From Paenibacillus tianmuensis (GTDB lineage Bacteria > Bacillota > Bacilli > Paenibacillales > NBRC-103111), in NCBI RefSeq assembly GCF_900100345.1, contig NZ_FMTT01000030.1:1-64000 (forward strand): a stretch of 64,000 nt of DNA, given 5' to 3'. The notes below the pieces were generated by a model. It was not told where the DNA came from and searched no databases. It was given only the letters and a program-made list of their open reading frames with translations. The stretch's first letter is position 1, and each line of letters starts with the position of its first letter. The position numbers and the translations under genes were made by a program. Of this stretch, positions 53,342 through 60,591 are shown in pieces.

Positions 53342-54247
53342 TTAACGAATAAAGGACAGCACGTGATCCAACTGCTGCGGGGGGACTTGAGCGATCAGGT
53401 CTCCTTTTTGCTGCAGGCGCTGCATAATGTTCAGGAGGTGAAAGTCCCGGGGATCGGGGCGGAGCGCCACTTCGTCCCAAGTCAGCGGAGTCGACACCGT
53501 GGCGTCCTTGCGGGCGCGCGGCGTATAGGGAGCGGACAGCGTTTTGCCGTACCAGTGTTGGAGATAATCGATGTAAATCAAGGTGCCGCGATCTTTTTTG
53601 AGCCGCTCGACGGTGAACAGCTTCGGGTGTTTTTGCACCGCAAACGTGGCGACGAACTGTCCGATCCGCCGGAGCTGCTCGAACGTATAGCCGCGCTCCC
53701 GGGCAATCGGGACGTAGATTTGCACGCCCGTGGCGCCGGACGTTTTCGGTACGGACCGGATGTTCATGCCATCCAAAATGCCGCCGATAATATGGGCCGC
53801 CTCCATAATGCGCGGCTCGGGGTCGACGCTCGGATCAATATCGATCACCCATTCGACGGGCAGCGTTTCGCCGATTCGGTGAAAAGACGGATGGAACTCC
53901 AGGCAGGCCAAATTCCCCAGCCACAGCAGCGTCGGCAGGGAATCGAGATGAACGTAGCGGATCGATTCCAGCATCGCCGTCTTGACGAAATCCGGTGTCG
54001 GCTCGGGAGCGTTTTTCTGGTAAAACGACTTGTCGTTCCAACCATGGGGAAACCGGATAGTCGTCAGATAGCGGTCGCGGCAATACGTCAGCAGGTAGGG
54101 GGACAGCTCGGCGAGCTTTTGCAAATACATCGCTTTCGTGATCTTCTTCTCCGGCCACAGCGGCTTATCCGGATTCGTCACCGTCAGCTCCCGGCCTTCG
54201 ACGATCAGCGTGCCTTTCGTTTTCGGATATTTGGCGGGTGCGGACAT
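53342..54247 (-). CDS. LigD-type polymerase/primase domain protein (end joining)
   Basis: The 301-residue protein corresponds to the LigD polymerase domain alone: LTVTNPDKPLWPE at the N terminus, YLTTIRFPHGWNDKSFYQKN, the metal-binding WVIDIDPSVDPE, VPKTSGATGVQIYVPI and APYTPRARKDATVSTPLTWDEV. It fills gaps with ribonucleotides or deoxynucleotides during non-homologous end joining. In B. subtilis it is fused behind a ligase; here the ligase is a separate gene 2.6 kb away. AGGAGGGAG lies before the ATG. Confidence 0.93.
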   Translation of the reverse strand: MSAPAKYPKTKGTLIVEGRELTVTNPDKPLWPEKKITKAMYLQKLAELSPYLLTYCRDRYLTTIRFPHGWNDKSFYQKNAPEPTPDFVKTAMLESIRYVHLDSLPTLLWLGNLACLEFHPSFHRIGETLPVEWVIDIDPSVDPEPRIMEAAHIIGGILDGMNIRSVPKTSGATGVQIYVPIARERGYTFEQLRRIGQFVATFAVQKHPKLFTVERLKKDRGTLIYIDYLQHWYGKTLSAPYTPRARKDATVSTPLTWDEVALRPDPRDFHLLNIMQRLQQKGDLIAQVPPQQLDHVLSFIR

Positions 54248-56834: not shown

Positions 56835-57788
56835 ATGGAGCTAAAGCCGATTTTTCCGTTCGAACCTGTCAGTACGAACGTCTCCCCATCCGGAAGCGAT
56901 TGGGTAGCCCAAATAAAATGGGATGGGGTAAGGATGCTGCATTATTTTAACGGGGTTGAAACCCGGTTATTTAACCGGAAGCTGAATGAGCGGACGTTAC
57001 AGTACCCGGAATTGCTTGATACCAAAGCATTCTGTCATGCGGACTCTGTTATTCTTGATGGCGAGATCATTGCTTTCGACAACAACAAGCCCTCCTTTCA
57101 TGAAATCATGAAGAGGGATAGTCTGAAACAAACTCAGAAGATCCAATTATCTATTGCCAAGGTCCCCGTAACCTATATGATTTTCGACGTATTATTTTAC
57201 AACGGAGCATGGATGACCGGGAATACATTAGCGAATCGACTACAATTACTGGAGAGAATCATTACGCCGAGAAATAACATTCAAGTGACGCAAAACTTCC
57301 CAGATGGAAGCGCACTATTCAGTCTTATGAAGGAATACCGGATGGAAGGCGTGGTGTATAAAGATCTTTCCAGCAAATACGCCATCAACGGAAAGGACGG
57401 AAGGTGGAAAAAACAAAAAATTTATAAAGATCTTTATGCGATCGTAGGGGGCGTCACCCTTCGGAACAAAATTGTTAATTCCTTGTTGCTGGGCTTATAC
57501 ACGAACGAGCAAGATCTATTATATATCGGCCACGCGGGTACGGGAAAATTAACAAACCACGATTGGGTGCGGATTACGGAACTGACCAGCCGCATGGTTA
57601 TTGACCGTAAGCCTTTCATGAATGAACCGGAAAGGTCCAAAGACGCAGTTTGGGTAAGGCCGGAGCTCAAAGTGAAAGTTGAATTTTTAGAGTTTACCCC
57701 AAACGGCACGATGCGGCATCCGAGTATCCAGTCAGTAGTGAACGTGTCAAAAAAAGAATGCGCGACGGATCAAATAACCGTTACATGA
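56835..57788 (+). CDS. ATP-dependent DNA ligase (LigD ligase-domain type)
   Basis: The 317-residue protein has the adenylation lysine K28 in QIKWDGVR, motif III ILDGEIIAF, motif IV MEGVVYKD and motif V region WKKQKIYKD, then an OB-fold with WVRPELKVKVEFLEFTPNGTMRHPS. It seals DNA breaks, probably with Ku and the LigD-type polymerase encoded nearby. Base composition is visibly more AT-rich than its neighbours, suggesting separate acquisition. GAGGGAG lies before the ATG. Confidence 0.93.
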   Translation: MELKPIFPFEPVSTNVSPSGSDWVAQIKWDGVRMLHYFNGVETRLFNRKLNERTLQYPELLDTKAFCHADSVILDGEIIAFDNNKPSFHEIMKRDSLKQTQKIQLSIAKVPVTYMIFDVLFYNGAWMTGNTLANRLQLLERIITPRNNIQVTQNFPDGSALFSLMKEYRMEGVVYKDLSSKYAINGKDGRWKKQKIYKDLYAIVGGVTLRNKIVNSLLLGLYTNEQDLLYIGHAGTGKLTNHDWVRITELTSRMVIDRKPFMNEPERSKDAVWVRPELKVKVEFLEFTPNGTMRHPSIQSVVNVSKKECATDQITVT

Positions 57789-57816: not shown

Positions 57817-57846
57817 TTGACACAACAGGCAGTGGCTCGGTATAGT
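57817..57846 (+). promoter_or_regulatory. sigma-A promoter of the ABC-F gene leader
   Basis: TTGACA (57817-57822) and TATAGT (57841-57846) are separated by 18 bases. Transcription would start near 57853, giving a ~300-nt leader before the ABC-F start codon. Confidence 0.78.
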
Positions 57847-57892
57847 TGAAGGTGCAATATAACTAACTTTGGGATAACGAGGTGGAAAGGAA

Positions 57893-57934
57893 ATGTTTTT
57901 CTTATCGACTGTTCTGAAACGGAATTTGGCTTAA
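57893..57934 (+). CDS. leader peptide (13 residues) of the ABC-F gene
   Basis: ATG at 57893 is preceded by GAGGTGG at eight bases. The frame encodes MFFLSTVLKRNLA and stops with TAA at 57932-57934. It lies between a strong promoter and a terminator, and its codons overlap the left arm of a large stem-loop, the layout of a ribosome-stalling attenuator. Confidence 0.65.
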   Translation: MFFLSTVLKRNLA

Positions 57935-57982
57935 ACGGGAGAAGTCTGCCCATTTTTCACCCTAAGCCAACCGAAGAACAGT
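57908..57982 (+). promoter_or_regulatory. leader stem-loop overlapping the leader peptide
   Basis: ACTGTTCT (57908-57915), CGG (57920-57922) and TTGGCTTA (57926-57933) pair in order with AGAACAGT (57975-57982), CCG (57971-57973) and TAAGCCAA (57963-57970). A ribosome on the leader peptide would open this stem and free AAACGGG (57933-57939), which is complementary to the right arm CCCGTTT of the downstream terminator. Confidence 0.68.
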
Positions 57983-58026
57983 AGATAAAGAACTCGATTC
58001 CTTTCGTTCAAATGATACAATTTGCA

Positions 58027-58060
58027 ACGGGTCAGGGCGTGTTCGCCTTGCCCGTTTTTG
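58027..58060 (+). terminator. attenuator terminator before the ABC-F gene
   Basis: ACGGGTCAGGGCG pairs with CGCCTTGCCCGT around a TGTT loop, followed by TTTTTG. It lies inside the leader of the ABC-F gene, ninety bases before its ATG. Confidence 0.82.
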
Positions 58061-58151
58061 TTTTCTATACAACCTAGACTAATTGAATAGAGCTTTGTCC
58101 GGCTGTTTCTCCGGTTGGCTTCGAACCTGAAGCGAAAAGGAGAAAGCTTTT

Positions 58152-59687
58152 ATGAGTATGTTAAACGTTGAACAGCTTACCCATACGTATGGGGACAAAA
58201 AAATATTCCAAAATATCCAATTCCGGCTGCTGCGGGGAGAGCATGCGGGACTCGTCGGCAGCAACGGGGCCGGCAAGTCGACCTTGCTGCGCGTCTTGGC
58301 GGGACAACTGCTTCCCGATGCAGGCAAAATCGAATGGCTTTCGCAAGCGCGGCTCGGTTATTTGGAGCAGCATGCCGATCTGCAGGCGGGAATGACGATT
58401 ATGGACTATTTGCGAGGCGCTTTCGCTCATCTGTATGAGCTGGAACGAACCCTGCATCGGGTCGCGGAGCAAATGGCCGCGGCGGACGCCAACCTCGAAC
58501 CGCTGTTAATCCGGTACGGCGAGCTGCAAAGCCGGCTAGAGCATGCCGATTTTTACGGTATCGATTCCAAGATTGAAGAGGTAGCTGCCGGATTAGGCAT
58601 TCTTGAGCTCGGCAAAGACCGGGAGGTCGATAAGCTGAGCGGGGGGCAGCGCACGAAGCTGCTGCTGGGCAAGCTGCTGCTGGAGGAGCCGCACGTATTA
58701 TTGCTCGACGAGCCGACCAACTACTTGGACGACGTGCATATCGAATGGCTGACCGGCTATTTGAAGCGCTATGAACAGGCGTATCTTGTCGTCTCGCATG
58801 ACGAAGCCTTTCTGAATGAAATTACAACGACGATCTTTCATTTGGAGCATCAGACCATCAAGCGTTACGCCGGGAACTATGCCGCGTTCGTCAAACATTA
58901 CGAACTAAGCCGGTTGCAGTGGCAGGACGCCTACGAGCGCCAACAGAAGGAAATCGACCGGCTGGAGAGCTATATCCAAAAGAACCGGAACCGGAAAGCC
59001 AAGCAAGCGAAAAGCCGGGAAAAAGCGCTGGAGCGAATGGAGCGGATTGAGAAACCGACGTCGGGGCCGCGGCCCCGCTACAGCTTTCATGTCCATATGG
59101 AACCCGTGACCCGGATCATGGAAGCGAAGCAGCTGCAATTCGGCTATGCGGAGCCGCTATCCGTTCCTGTAAACCTGCAAATGAAACGCGGGGAAAAAGT
59201 GGCGGTTGTCGGGTACAACGGCATCGGGAAGTCGACCATGCTCAAAACGATGCTGGGCCTGCTGCCGCCGTTACGCGGCACGGTACAGCTCGGCGAACGG
59301 GTCGTACCGGCTTATTTCGCCCAGGAGCAATTGCCTTCGGACGAAACGGCGCTGGAGCGGCTGTGGTCGCTGCGGCCAGATAAGACGCAGAAGGAAATCC
59401 GGCAGACGCTCGGCATGGCCGGCCTGACCGAAAAGCATATCCGGCAGCCTCTTAGCTCGCTTAGCGGCGGGGAGCAAGCGAAGGTCCGCCTGTGCGAGCT
59501 CATGCTGACAGACAGCAATCTTCTCGTGCTGGACGAACCTACGAACCATCTGGACGTCAGGGCGAAGGAAGCGTTCAAGGAAGCGCTGAAGGAGTACAAA
59601 GGGACCATTCTGCTCGTTTCCCACGAGCCGGAGTTTTATAAAGATTGGATTACTCAGGTTTGGTGCTTGCAGGACTGGAGCAAGTAA
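58152..59687 (+). CDS. ABC-F family ATPase (ribosome-associated translation or protection factor)
   Basis: The 511-residue soluble protein has two ABC domains and no membrane segment. Walker A motifs are GSNGAGKST and GYNGIGKST, signatures LSGGQ and LSGGEQ, Walker B motifs VLLLDEPTNYLD and LLVLDEPTNHLD. Between them is the ABC-F linker (~residues 240-300, RLQWQDAYERQQKEIDRLESY). Overall it most resembles YfmM-like ABC-F proteins. ABC-F members bind the ribosomal E site and relieve stalling or antibiotic inhibition. The leader suggests induction by translation inhibitors. An in-frame ATG at 58158 is possible; AAAAGGAG precedes 58152. Confidence 0.9.
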   Translation: MSMLNVEQLTHTYGDKKIFQNIQFRLLRGEHAGLVGSNGAGKSTLLRVLAGQLLPDAGKIEWLSQARLGYLEQHADLQAGMTIMDYLRGAFAHLYELERTLHRVAEQMAAADANLEPLLIRYGELQSRLEHADFYGIDSKIEEVAAGLGILELGKDREVDKLSGGQRTKLLLGKLLLEEPHVLLLDEPTNYLDDVHIEWLTGYLKRYEQAYLVVSHDEAFLNEITTTIFHLEHQTIKRYAGNYAAFVKHYELSRLQWQDAYERQQKEIDRLESYIQKNRNRKAKQAKSREKALERMERIEKPTSGPRPRYSFHVHMEPVTRIMEAKQLQFGYAEPLSVPVNLQMKRGEKVAVVGYNGIGKSTMLKTMLGLLPPLRGTVQLGERVVPAYFAQEQLPSDETALERLWSLRPDKTQKEIRQTLGMAGLTEKHIRQPLSSLSGGEQAKVRLCELMLTDSNLLVLDEPTNHLDVRAKEAFKEALKEYKGTILLVSHEPEFYKDWITQVWCLQDWSK

Positions 59688-59713: not shown

Positions 59714-59748
59714 AAAGAAACGATCGGCGCTTAGCCGATCGTTTCTTT
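59714..59748. terminator. bidirectional terminator between ABC-F and Ku genes
   Basis: AAAGAAACGATCGGC and GCCGATCGTTTCTTT form a perfect 15-bp stem; the Ku stop codon lies in the loop. Confidence 0.92.
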
Positions 59749-60591
59749 CGTTTTTGCTTTGCCTTTTCTTGGTTTCGCGGCTTTAGCTTTCTCGGTCGTC
59801 CCCGGCGTAGGCTCGGTTACGACTGGTTTCACCGCTTCGAGGCTCGCCTGCAGCGCGGCCATCAGATCGATAACGTTCGCTTTATGCGGCTCCGGCGCGA
59901 CGCGGACCTGCTGGCCGGAAACCTTCGCCTCGATCGCTTGCAGCACGGCCGCACGGTAATCGTCCTTGTATTTTTCCGGCTCGAACTTCGTCGCCAACTG
60001 GCCGATCAACAGCTTCGCCATTTCGAGCTCCTTCTCGTTGACGTTGCTCTGCTCCGGGAGATTCGGCACATGTTCCACCGAGCGGATTTCATCCGGGTAA
60101 AAAATCGTCTCCATCGCAATGCACCGGTCGATAATGCGAATGGCGGCCAAGCTGCTTTTGGACCGGATGGACACTTTGGCAATGCCGATTTTGCCCGTTT
60201 GCCGCATCGCTTCGAGCAGCAGACTATAAGCCCCGGCGCCGGTTTCGTTCGGAGCGAGGTAGTACGTTTTTTGAAAATAAACCGGGTCGATGTCCGACAA
60301 GTCCACGAAATCGAGAATCTTGATTTCTTTGGTGATCTCCCCGGTCAGCTTCTCCAGCTCGTCCTTCTCGAACAGCACGAACGAGCCCGGATCGTACTCG
60401 TAGCCTCGGACGATTTCCCCCCACTCCACTTCGCGCTCGCAGTGCTGGCATTTGCGGATAAAATTCAGCGGAGTATTGCAATCCTTGTGAATCATGCGCA
60501 TCGAGATGTCCTTGTCTTCCGTCGCCGAGAACATCTTGACAGGCACGTGCACCAAGCCGAAGCTGATGGCGCCTTTCCAAACCGTATGCAT
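59731..60591 (-). CDS. ku: Ku protein (non-homologous end joining)
   Basis: The 286-residue protein begins MHTVWKGAISFGLVHVPVKM, the classic bacterial Ku start. Further features are MRMIHKDCNTPLNF, RKCQHC, VRGYEYDPGSFVLFEKDEL and the C-terminal YKDDYRAAVLQAIEAK, followed by a Lys/Ala-rich tail likely to contact DNA or the ligase. Ku encircles broken DNA ends and recruits the ligase and polymerase. In B. subtilis this pathway acts in spores. The gene is monocistronic and ends in a shared terminator. Confidence 0.96.
   Translation of the reverse strand: MHTVWKGAISFGLVHVPVKMFSATEDKDISMRMIHKDCNTPLNFIRKCQHCEREVEWGEIVRGYEYDPGSFVLFEKDELEKLTGEITKEIKILDFVDLSDIDPVYFQKTYYLAPNETGAGAYSLLLEAMRQTGKIGIAKVSIRSKSSLAAIRIIDRCIAMETIFYPDEIRSVEHVPNLPEQSNVNEKELEMAKLLIGQLATKFEPEKYKDDYRAAVLQAIEAKVSGQQVRVAPEPHKANVIDLMAALQASLEAVKPVVTEPTPGTTEKAKAAKPRKGKAKTKETIG

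Follow-up and report, generated by a model that had tools for sequence, protein, structure and literature searches.

The window, by which we mean the whole stretch of 64,000 nucleotides that was analyzed, carries an ABC-F gene preceded by a promoter, a 13-codon leader open reading frame (ORF) with a ribosome binding site (RBS), a long stem, and a terminator. All of these were found where the original prediction had placed them. The features of the locus are as follows, with SD for Shine-Dalgarno sequence and with segments numbered along the RNA.

57817..57846, + strand: promoter TTGACA-18-TATAGT, 11 of 12 consensus matches
~57880-57891, + strand: leader SD, AGGTGGAAAGGA, ahead of the leader ATG
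57893..57934, + strand: leader ORF, read directly, with ATG at 57893, 13 codons (MFFLSTVLKRNLA), and stop TAA at 57932-57934
57899-57931, + strand: segment 1, within the leader ORF
57935..57957, + strand: near-invariant core ACGGGAGAAGTCTGCCCATTTTT, 23 nt right after the leader stop, between segments 1 and 2
57963..57989, + strand: segment 2, predicted partner of segment 1 (OFF) or segment 5 (ON)
58026..58059, + strand: intrinsic terminator (3:4), a terminator-like match
58103..58122, + strand: segment 5, which nearly repeats the leader (CTGTTTCTCCGGTTGGCTTC), predicted partner of segment 2
58103..58149, + strand: SD-sequestering hairpin 5:6, covering the ABC-F RBS AAAGGAG at ~58136-58142
58152..59687, + strand: ABC-F coding sequence, 511 aa, with a short interdomain linker

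The same promoter is present in the leaders of three close relatives (L002, L006, and L009), and the region from 57853 to 58075 folds at -74.7 kcal/mol (z = -5.2), a value that none of 200 shuffled sequences equaled. Across the stretch, promoter-like matches (2 versus 1.6 expected) and terminator-like matches (2 versus 4.2 expected) are no commoner than chance. Since such matches alone do not rise above chance, the case for an attenuator rests on conservation.

The 511-aa protein passed the NCBIfam model NF000355 (ribosomal protection-like ABC-F) with 418.7 bits against a cut-off of 380, and none of the named resistance subfamily models scored above its own cut-off for this protein. Its best solved relatives are PoxtA and YheS (258.1 bits each), and we take it to be YfmM-like. 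Within the genus, 13 of 25 genomes carry a copy with at least 65% identity. A separate ABC-F copy in the same genome is 50% identical (C102:39421-40959), and on this ground the window gene is regarded as accessory. In Paenibacillus sp. P25 (L013/L078), the orthologue contains a stop as well as a frame change around query residue 439, and its leader is intact. The gene is flanked by genes of the nonhomologous end-joining (NHEJ) type (window:53342-60591), namely, a LigD-polymerase-like gene assigned by eye (53342-54247, minus strand), an ATP-dependent ligase gene (56835-57788), and a Ku gene (59731-60591, minus strand), and the Ku neighbor recurs in related genomes.

Leader peptide and predicted ribosome-dependent RNA folding

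As judged from codon comparison, the leader is under selection at the peptide level: in a set of 24 unique leaders of 13 codons, synonymous changes made up a fraction of 0.578 of the differences versus 0.274 expected. The consensus is M-x-x-L-S/T-T-V-L-x-R, in which Arg10 is preserved across exchange of CGG and AGA and Leu8 across four codons. The upstream ORF (uORF) is conserved together with its SD, and the selection on the peptide suggests that it is translated. Some leaders end directly after Arg10 or one codon later, and these early stops, like the conserved residues, agree with a putative arrest around codons 8 to 10, which is also the arrest site required by the folding model. The RLR arrest motif is absent from the window leader; the core downstream of it is shared with RLR leaders.

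A four-helix layout is conserved among the orthologous leaders. Helix 1:2 was paired in 84% of the cells of the alignment, with 46 double-change cells, and helix 2:5 in 75%, with 76 double-change cells; for neither helix was the count reached by any of 300 shuffles. Segment 5, the near copy of the leader just 5′ of the ABC-F gene, can take segment 2 as its partner in the orthologues, and the 2:5 duplex gave a mean z of -4.4 against shuffles in 38 leaders, with 35 of them below -2. Each of the 38 leaders examined has a stable hairpin at 5:6, and the covariation of 5:6 is weak with the window's own pairs imposed. Both the leader frame and the pairings are kept in dozens of orthologues, far beyond chance, and the ribosome-sensing part of the attenuator that had been proposed for this locus is thereby supported. 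Segment 5, and the sharing of the element behind the leader stop with Erm, Cfr, Mph, Mef, RlmA, and other leaders, had no place in the original prediction.

Folding was predicted at equilibrium for naked RNA. Without a ribosome, helix 1:2 of the window had a probability of 1.00 and hairpin 5:6 a probability of 0.96; once a ribosome stood at or beyond codon 8, 2:5 formed with a probability of 1.00, 5:6 dropped to 0.05, and the SD was largely open. In the computation, the SD hairpin and 2:5 are mutually exclusive structures set by ribosome position. Over 33 leaders, the median SD accessibility rose from 0.034 with no ribosome to 0.50 with a ribosome at codon 10, and at several of these loci the SD opened little in the stalled state. 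The window terminator was predicted with a probability of 1.00 in every state, ribosome stalled or absent. Folding with and without a ribosome on the leader predicts a switch at the SD hairpin and not at the terminator. Terminator-like hairpins occur in 95 of the 100 leaders taken as representatives, some of the stems being mis-assigned. This constancy of the predicted terminator favors translation attenuation over antitermination, and because the equilibrium folds gave no antiterminator, control of transcription is putative.

We consider it probable, at roughly 0.78, that the region as a whole is a ribosome-sensing attenuator of the ABC-F gene. On the best reading, drug-stalled ribosomes would induce this accessory ABC-F by translation attenuation, with the terminator as a second layer. 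When no drug is present, the 13-codon leader would be translated, the ribosome would be released, and segment 1 would pair with segment 2; most transcripts would then end at the terminator (~58059), and those that read through would keep the ABC-F start site hidden in hairpin 5:6. We infer that a drug would stall the ribosome near codons 8 to 10 (L-x-R), where it would cover segment 1, and that segment 2, freed by the stall, would pair with segment 5 and so open the ABC-F SD.

Distribution of the core and the genes behind it

The core located between segments 1 and 2 has the consensus ACGGGANNAGUCUGYCCWUUUU and is nearly invariant over ~20 nt while the surrounding sequence varies (1.64 bits per position versus 0.17 in the flanks, values that are ascertainment-biased, partly from searching with the core itself). 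The pattern ACGGGAGAAGTCTGCCCNTTT was found at 73 exact loci in 257 Gb, where a letter-count estimate gives ~1 chance match. A two-mismatch search of 399 Bacilli genomes matched 83 genomes versus 2 for the reversed pattern, and a model built from the 73 cores matched 177 of 300 genomes at E≤0.05, a threshold at which ~15 are expected by chance and at which E values are rough for so short a model. Those of its weaker matches that were re-fetched lay mostly upstream of ABC-F genes. The core is rare outside Bacilli: an exact-pattern search of 398 genomes of the phylum had hits in just three genomes from other classes, and one case is chloroflexotan (L061). The three best matches in the genome of the window itself precede the window ABC-F gene, a SAM methyltransferase gene (L281), and a second ABC-F gene (L282). 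A plasmid search with the window leader returned no relative; with the core alone it returned Priestia plasmids, and the one inspected has the core before a macrolide phosphotransferase gene.

No Rfam 15 family matched the core at gathering score, and relaxed thresholds added only rliI (RF01487), a weak match below threshold (30.7 bits versus a gathering score of 45) over the core-bearing ABC-F leader L142. This family is listed as a Listeria sRNA, and its consensus holds only a degenerate core. The uup RNA motif, mentioned in PMC11477304 and of unconfirmed accession, was absent from the Rfam 15 scan matches. In a search largely of literature open without subscription, we found no paper giving the core sequence or a shared core, and the core is likely, but not certainly, new to the literature.

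Among 151 non-redundant core sites, 127 precede resistance-type or related genes, which were assigned by sequence similarity to the following classes.

ABC-F, several subfamilies: 96 of 151 sites
MFS exporters, including Mef-like: 7 of 151 sites
Erm: 6 of 151 sites
DUF1062: 5 of 151 sites
RlmA-II: 4 of 151 sites
Cfr: 3 of 151 sites
SAM methyltransferases: 2 of 151 sites
RidA-like: 2 of 151 sites
CatB/Vat-like: 1 of 151 sites
Mph: 1 of 151 sites
None of these classes: 24 of 151 sites

The names Erm, Cfr, Mph(L), CatB/Vat, Mef-like, and RlmA are backed by HMM matches. The core lies in the sense orientation in 92 of 114 cases and in antisense in 4. Two of the 24 unclassed sites (L077 and L113) have a FusB-like gene behind the core, and for L077, the one protein to which the domain match applies, the domains are EF-G-binding_N and FBP_C. 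This EF-G-binding gene, of the fusidate resistance type (L077:4852-5617; also L113 and L114), lies behind a core variant and is divergent from a core-bearing ABC-F gene.

Through genes of less familiar classes, the core may serve as a handle for genome mining, with DUF1062, the SAM methyltransferase family, and RidA-like genes becoming antibiotic-response candidates. The DUF1062 genes behind the core (L153, L157, L167, L170, L177, and L193, minus strand) are candidate drug-response genes. Their loci have short uORFs such as MPTTTL, MPSNSL, and MPAYL, one of the proteins also matches an S4 RNA-binding domain, and the DUF1062 gene of L193 is near a core-bearing RlmA gene in the opposite orientation. 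The SAM methyltransferase family, found in the same genome (L281, C64:27208-27229) and at L140 with the uORFs MSFRIVRGI and MSYRLVRSI, is possibly a new rRNA or drug methyltransferase. RidA-like genes follow the core at L146 and L144, the former divergent from a core-bearing ABC-F gene within ~330 nt.

Several core matches lie in other settings. The same 19-mer also turns up at transposase ends and, in Bacillus sp. SA1-12, within a group II intron-like element; these matches were treated as unrelated or due to chance. At nine loci (L062, L068, L097, L102, and L122; L034, L039, L055, and L057) the core letters are exact or have one mismatch; the copies sit within a group II intron-like element and at the ends of transposase genes (frame KREKSA), and they are probably due to chance, multiplied by copy number. 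Four Lachnospiraceae loci (L087, L104, L107, and L130) have the core in conserved sequence with CCTAT/ATAGG flanks and no resistance gene downstream, perhaps the end of a mobile element. A group II intron RNA (Rfam match; L141:2021-2577) is inserted downstream of a core-bearing attenuator, and the end of L031 has intron-like sequence past the terminator.

Possible role of the core and comparison with known attenuators

The core is carried by several unrelated leader classes, including TVLxR peptides that end just 5′ of it, MTHSMRLRFPTLNQ-like peptides that end 40 to 50 nt ahead of it, and longer ORFs of ~35 to 55 codons that cross it, each of the three frames being represented. In the commonest frame of the translated core, 29 synonymous and 819 nonsynonymous differences were counted (3.4% synonymous versus 24% expected), which is the opposite of the peptide signal upstream. 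Because synonymous changes are depleted and three frames are crossed, the core acts as DNA or RNA, and a role as leader peptide was rejected. An extended hairpin was likewise rejected, as positions 6 and 11 lack covariation; in leaders with RLR, its pairing partner is the start of the leader, and by eye the variable NN positions covary. The core is a separate nucleic-acid module common to many resistance leaders.

The consensus of the elemental RNA polymerase pause is G-11 G-10 T-3 Y-1 G+1, and the core fits it in 122 of 127 cases. The strict NusG motif TTNTTT, which NusG-dependent pause leaders (tlrB and vmlR) carry in the non-template strand past a pause hairpin, is present in just 54 of 127 cores and missing from that of the window, which ends CCCATTTTTCA. 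A conserved Arg (24 of 26, TVLxR class) or His (21 of 21, [AS]-[IMV]-[FT]-H class) lies 15 to 16 nt 5′ of the core, so that a ribosome with that codon in its A-site would end flush with the core. The function that we find most likely, tentatively and at somewhat less than even odds, is that the core pauses RNA polymerase, which would give a ribosome time to load and to close up ahead of the synthesis of segment 2; the patchy presence of TTNTTT and an invariance of the core beyond the need of any known pause hairpin count against this explanation.

Other roles of the core were weighed against the same data. An antiterminator strand, with UCUGYCCWUUUU set free by a stalled ribosome for pairing with the terminator's 5′ arm, could draw on strong complementarity in some loci (z of -4.9 in L110; also L013, L031, L128, and L141) and on p≤0.05 in 19% of 95 leaders versus 5% expected. 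Yet the mean z is only -0.6, too weak for a general rule, the terminator arms vary and the core does not, and the window terminator never yields in the predictions; such a strand is therefore unlikely. We regard as equally doubtful a cis-acting antitermination or factor-recruiting element that is active when no ribosome covers the core, whether as a put-like RNA or as ops-like non-template DNA read by NusG/RNA polymerase. The core is invariant without a pairing partner or a reading frame, it matches the pause consensus, and the terminator is otherwise never disrupted, all of which would suit such an element; NusG paralogues, however, are not codistributed with the core (4 of 20 core-bearing genomes versus 2 of 20 without it), and a specialized paralogue as its reader was rejected.

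The pairing put forward in the original prediction, between AAACGGG at 57933-57939 and CCCGTTT at 58051-58057, is complementary in the window. Of the two strands, AAACGGG belongs to the core, which with its ACGGG is nearly invariant in the leaders of the orthologues, but CCCGTTT occurs in just 14 of 38 of them; unlike the leader and the stem, this pairing is not conserved far beyond chance. This switch is highly improbable, and that part of the proposed attenuator was abandoned. A short invariant RNA before functionally related genes could also be an aptamer, and the leader a ligand-binding riboswitch or a general sensor of slow translation rather than of drug stalling. Several observations make these alternatives very unlikely: the core is ~20 nt and lacks extended structure, in 49 cases it is part of a leader that is translated, conserved peptides (e.g., RLR or TVLxR) occur in the leader classes, and most gene classes behind the core concern translation inhibitors.

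A broader proposal, which we hold a little more loosely than that of a polymerase pause, is that antibiotic-sensing leaders in Bacilli widely use the core as a plug-in module. It would be ops- or put-like, and RNA polymerase, alone or together with NusG, would read it at the front edge of a ribosome stalled by a drug. On this view, the module would be joined to leaders and resistance genes from unrelated families and would be a beacon for unrecognized drug-inducible genes. To our knowledge, resistance-gene attenuators have been studied singly and are thought to have a principle, not a sequence, in common. The core in ABC-F, Erm, Cfr, Mph, Mef, RlmA, CatB/Vat, and FusB leaders would point to a common step between the stalled ribosome and RNA polymerase.

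The principle that we propose for the window has been shown experimentally for vmlR, tlrB, and cplR (PMC9226507, PMC6851288, PMC10201436), and the vmlR and tlrB leaders join leader stalling, pausing, a terminator, and an SD hairpin (PMC9226507, PMC6851288). Bacillus subtilis vmlR resembles the window in its uORF within a stem, its terminator, its SD-sequestering hairpin, its ABC-F target, and an alternative pairing that opens the SD; its uORF is MIN, in contrast to the 13-codon peptide of the window, and the core is not vmlR SL-2, since the sequences differ (SL-2 is GCUAUUU, with the pause motif TTATTT) (PMC9226507). Clostridioides difficile cplR is similar to our model in that a stalled uORF attenuates an ABC-F gene at both transcription and translation, but that uORF is MRI, the SD lies within the terminator hairpin, and no such core was reported (PMC10201436). 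B. subtilis tlrB/yxjB combines leader peptide arrest and pausing with a terminator and an SD hairpin, as proposed for the window; its leader is MIIQFIRYR, and its published text mentions no such core (PMC6851288). The RlmA-II genes of our set also carry the core. The ermK/ermD-type attenuator leader, MTHSMRLRFPTLNQ in the form quoted in PMC4335068, has RLR, unlike the window leader. Peptides nearly identical to this quoted form (e.g., MTHFMRLRFPTLNQ, L193) accompany the core here, and the genes that follow this class of leader are of the Erm, RlmA, Mph, Mef-like, and ABC-F types.
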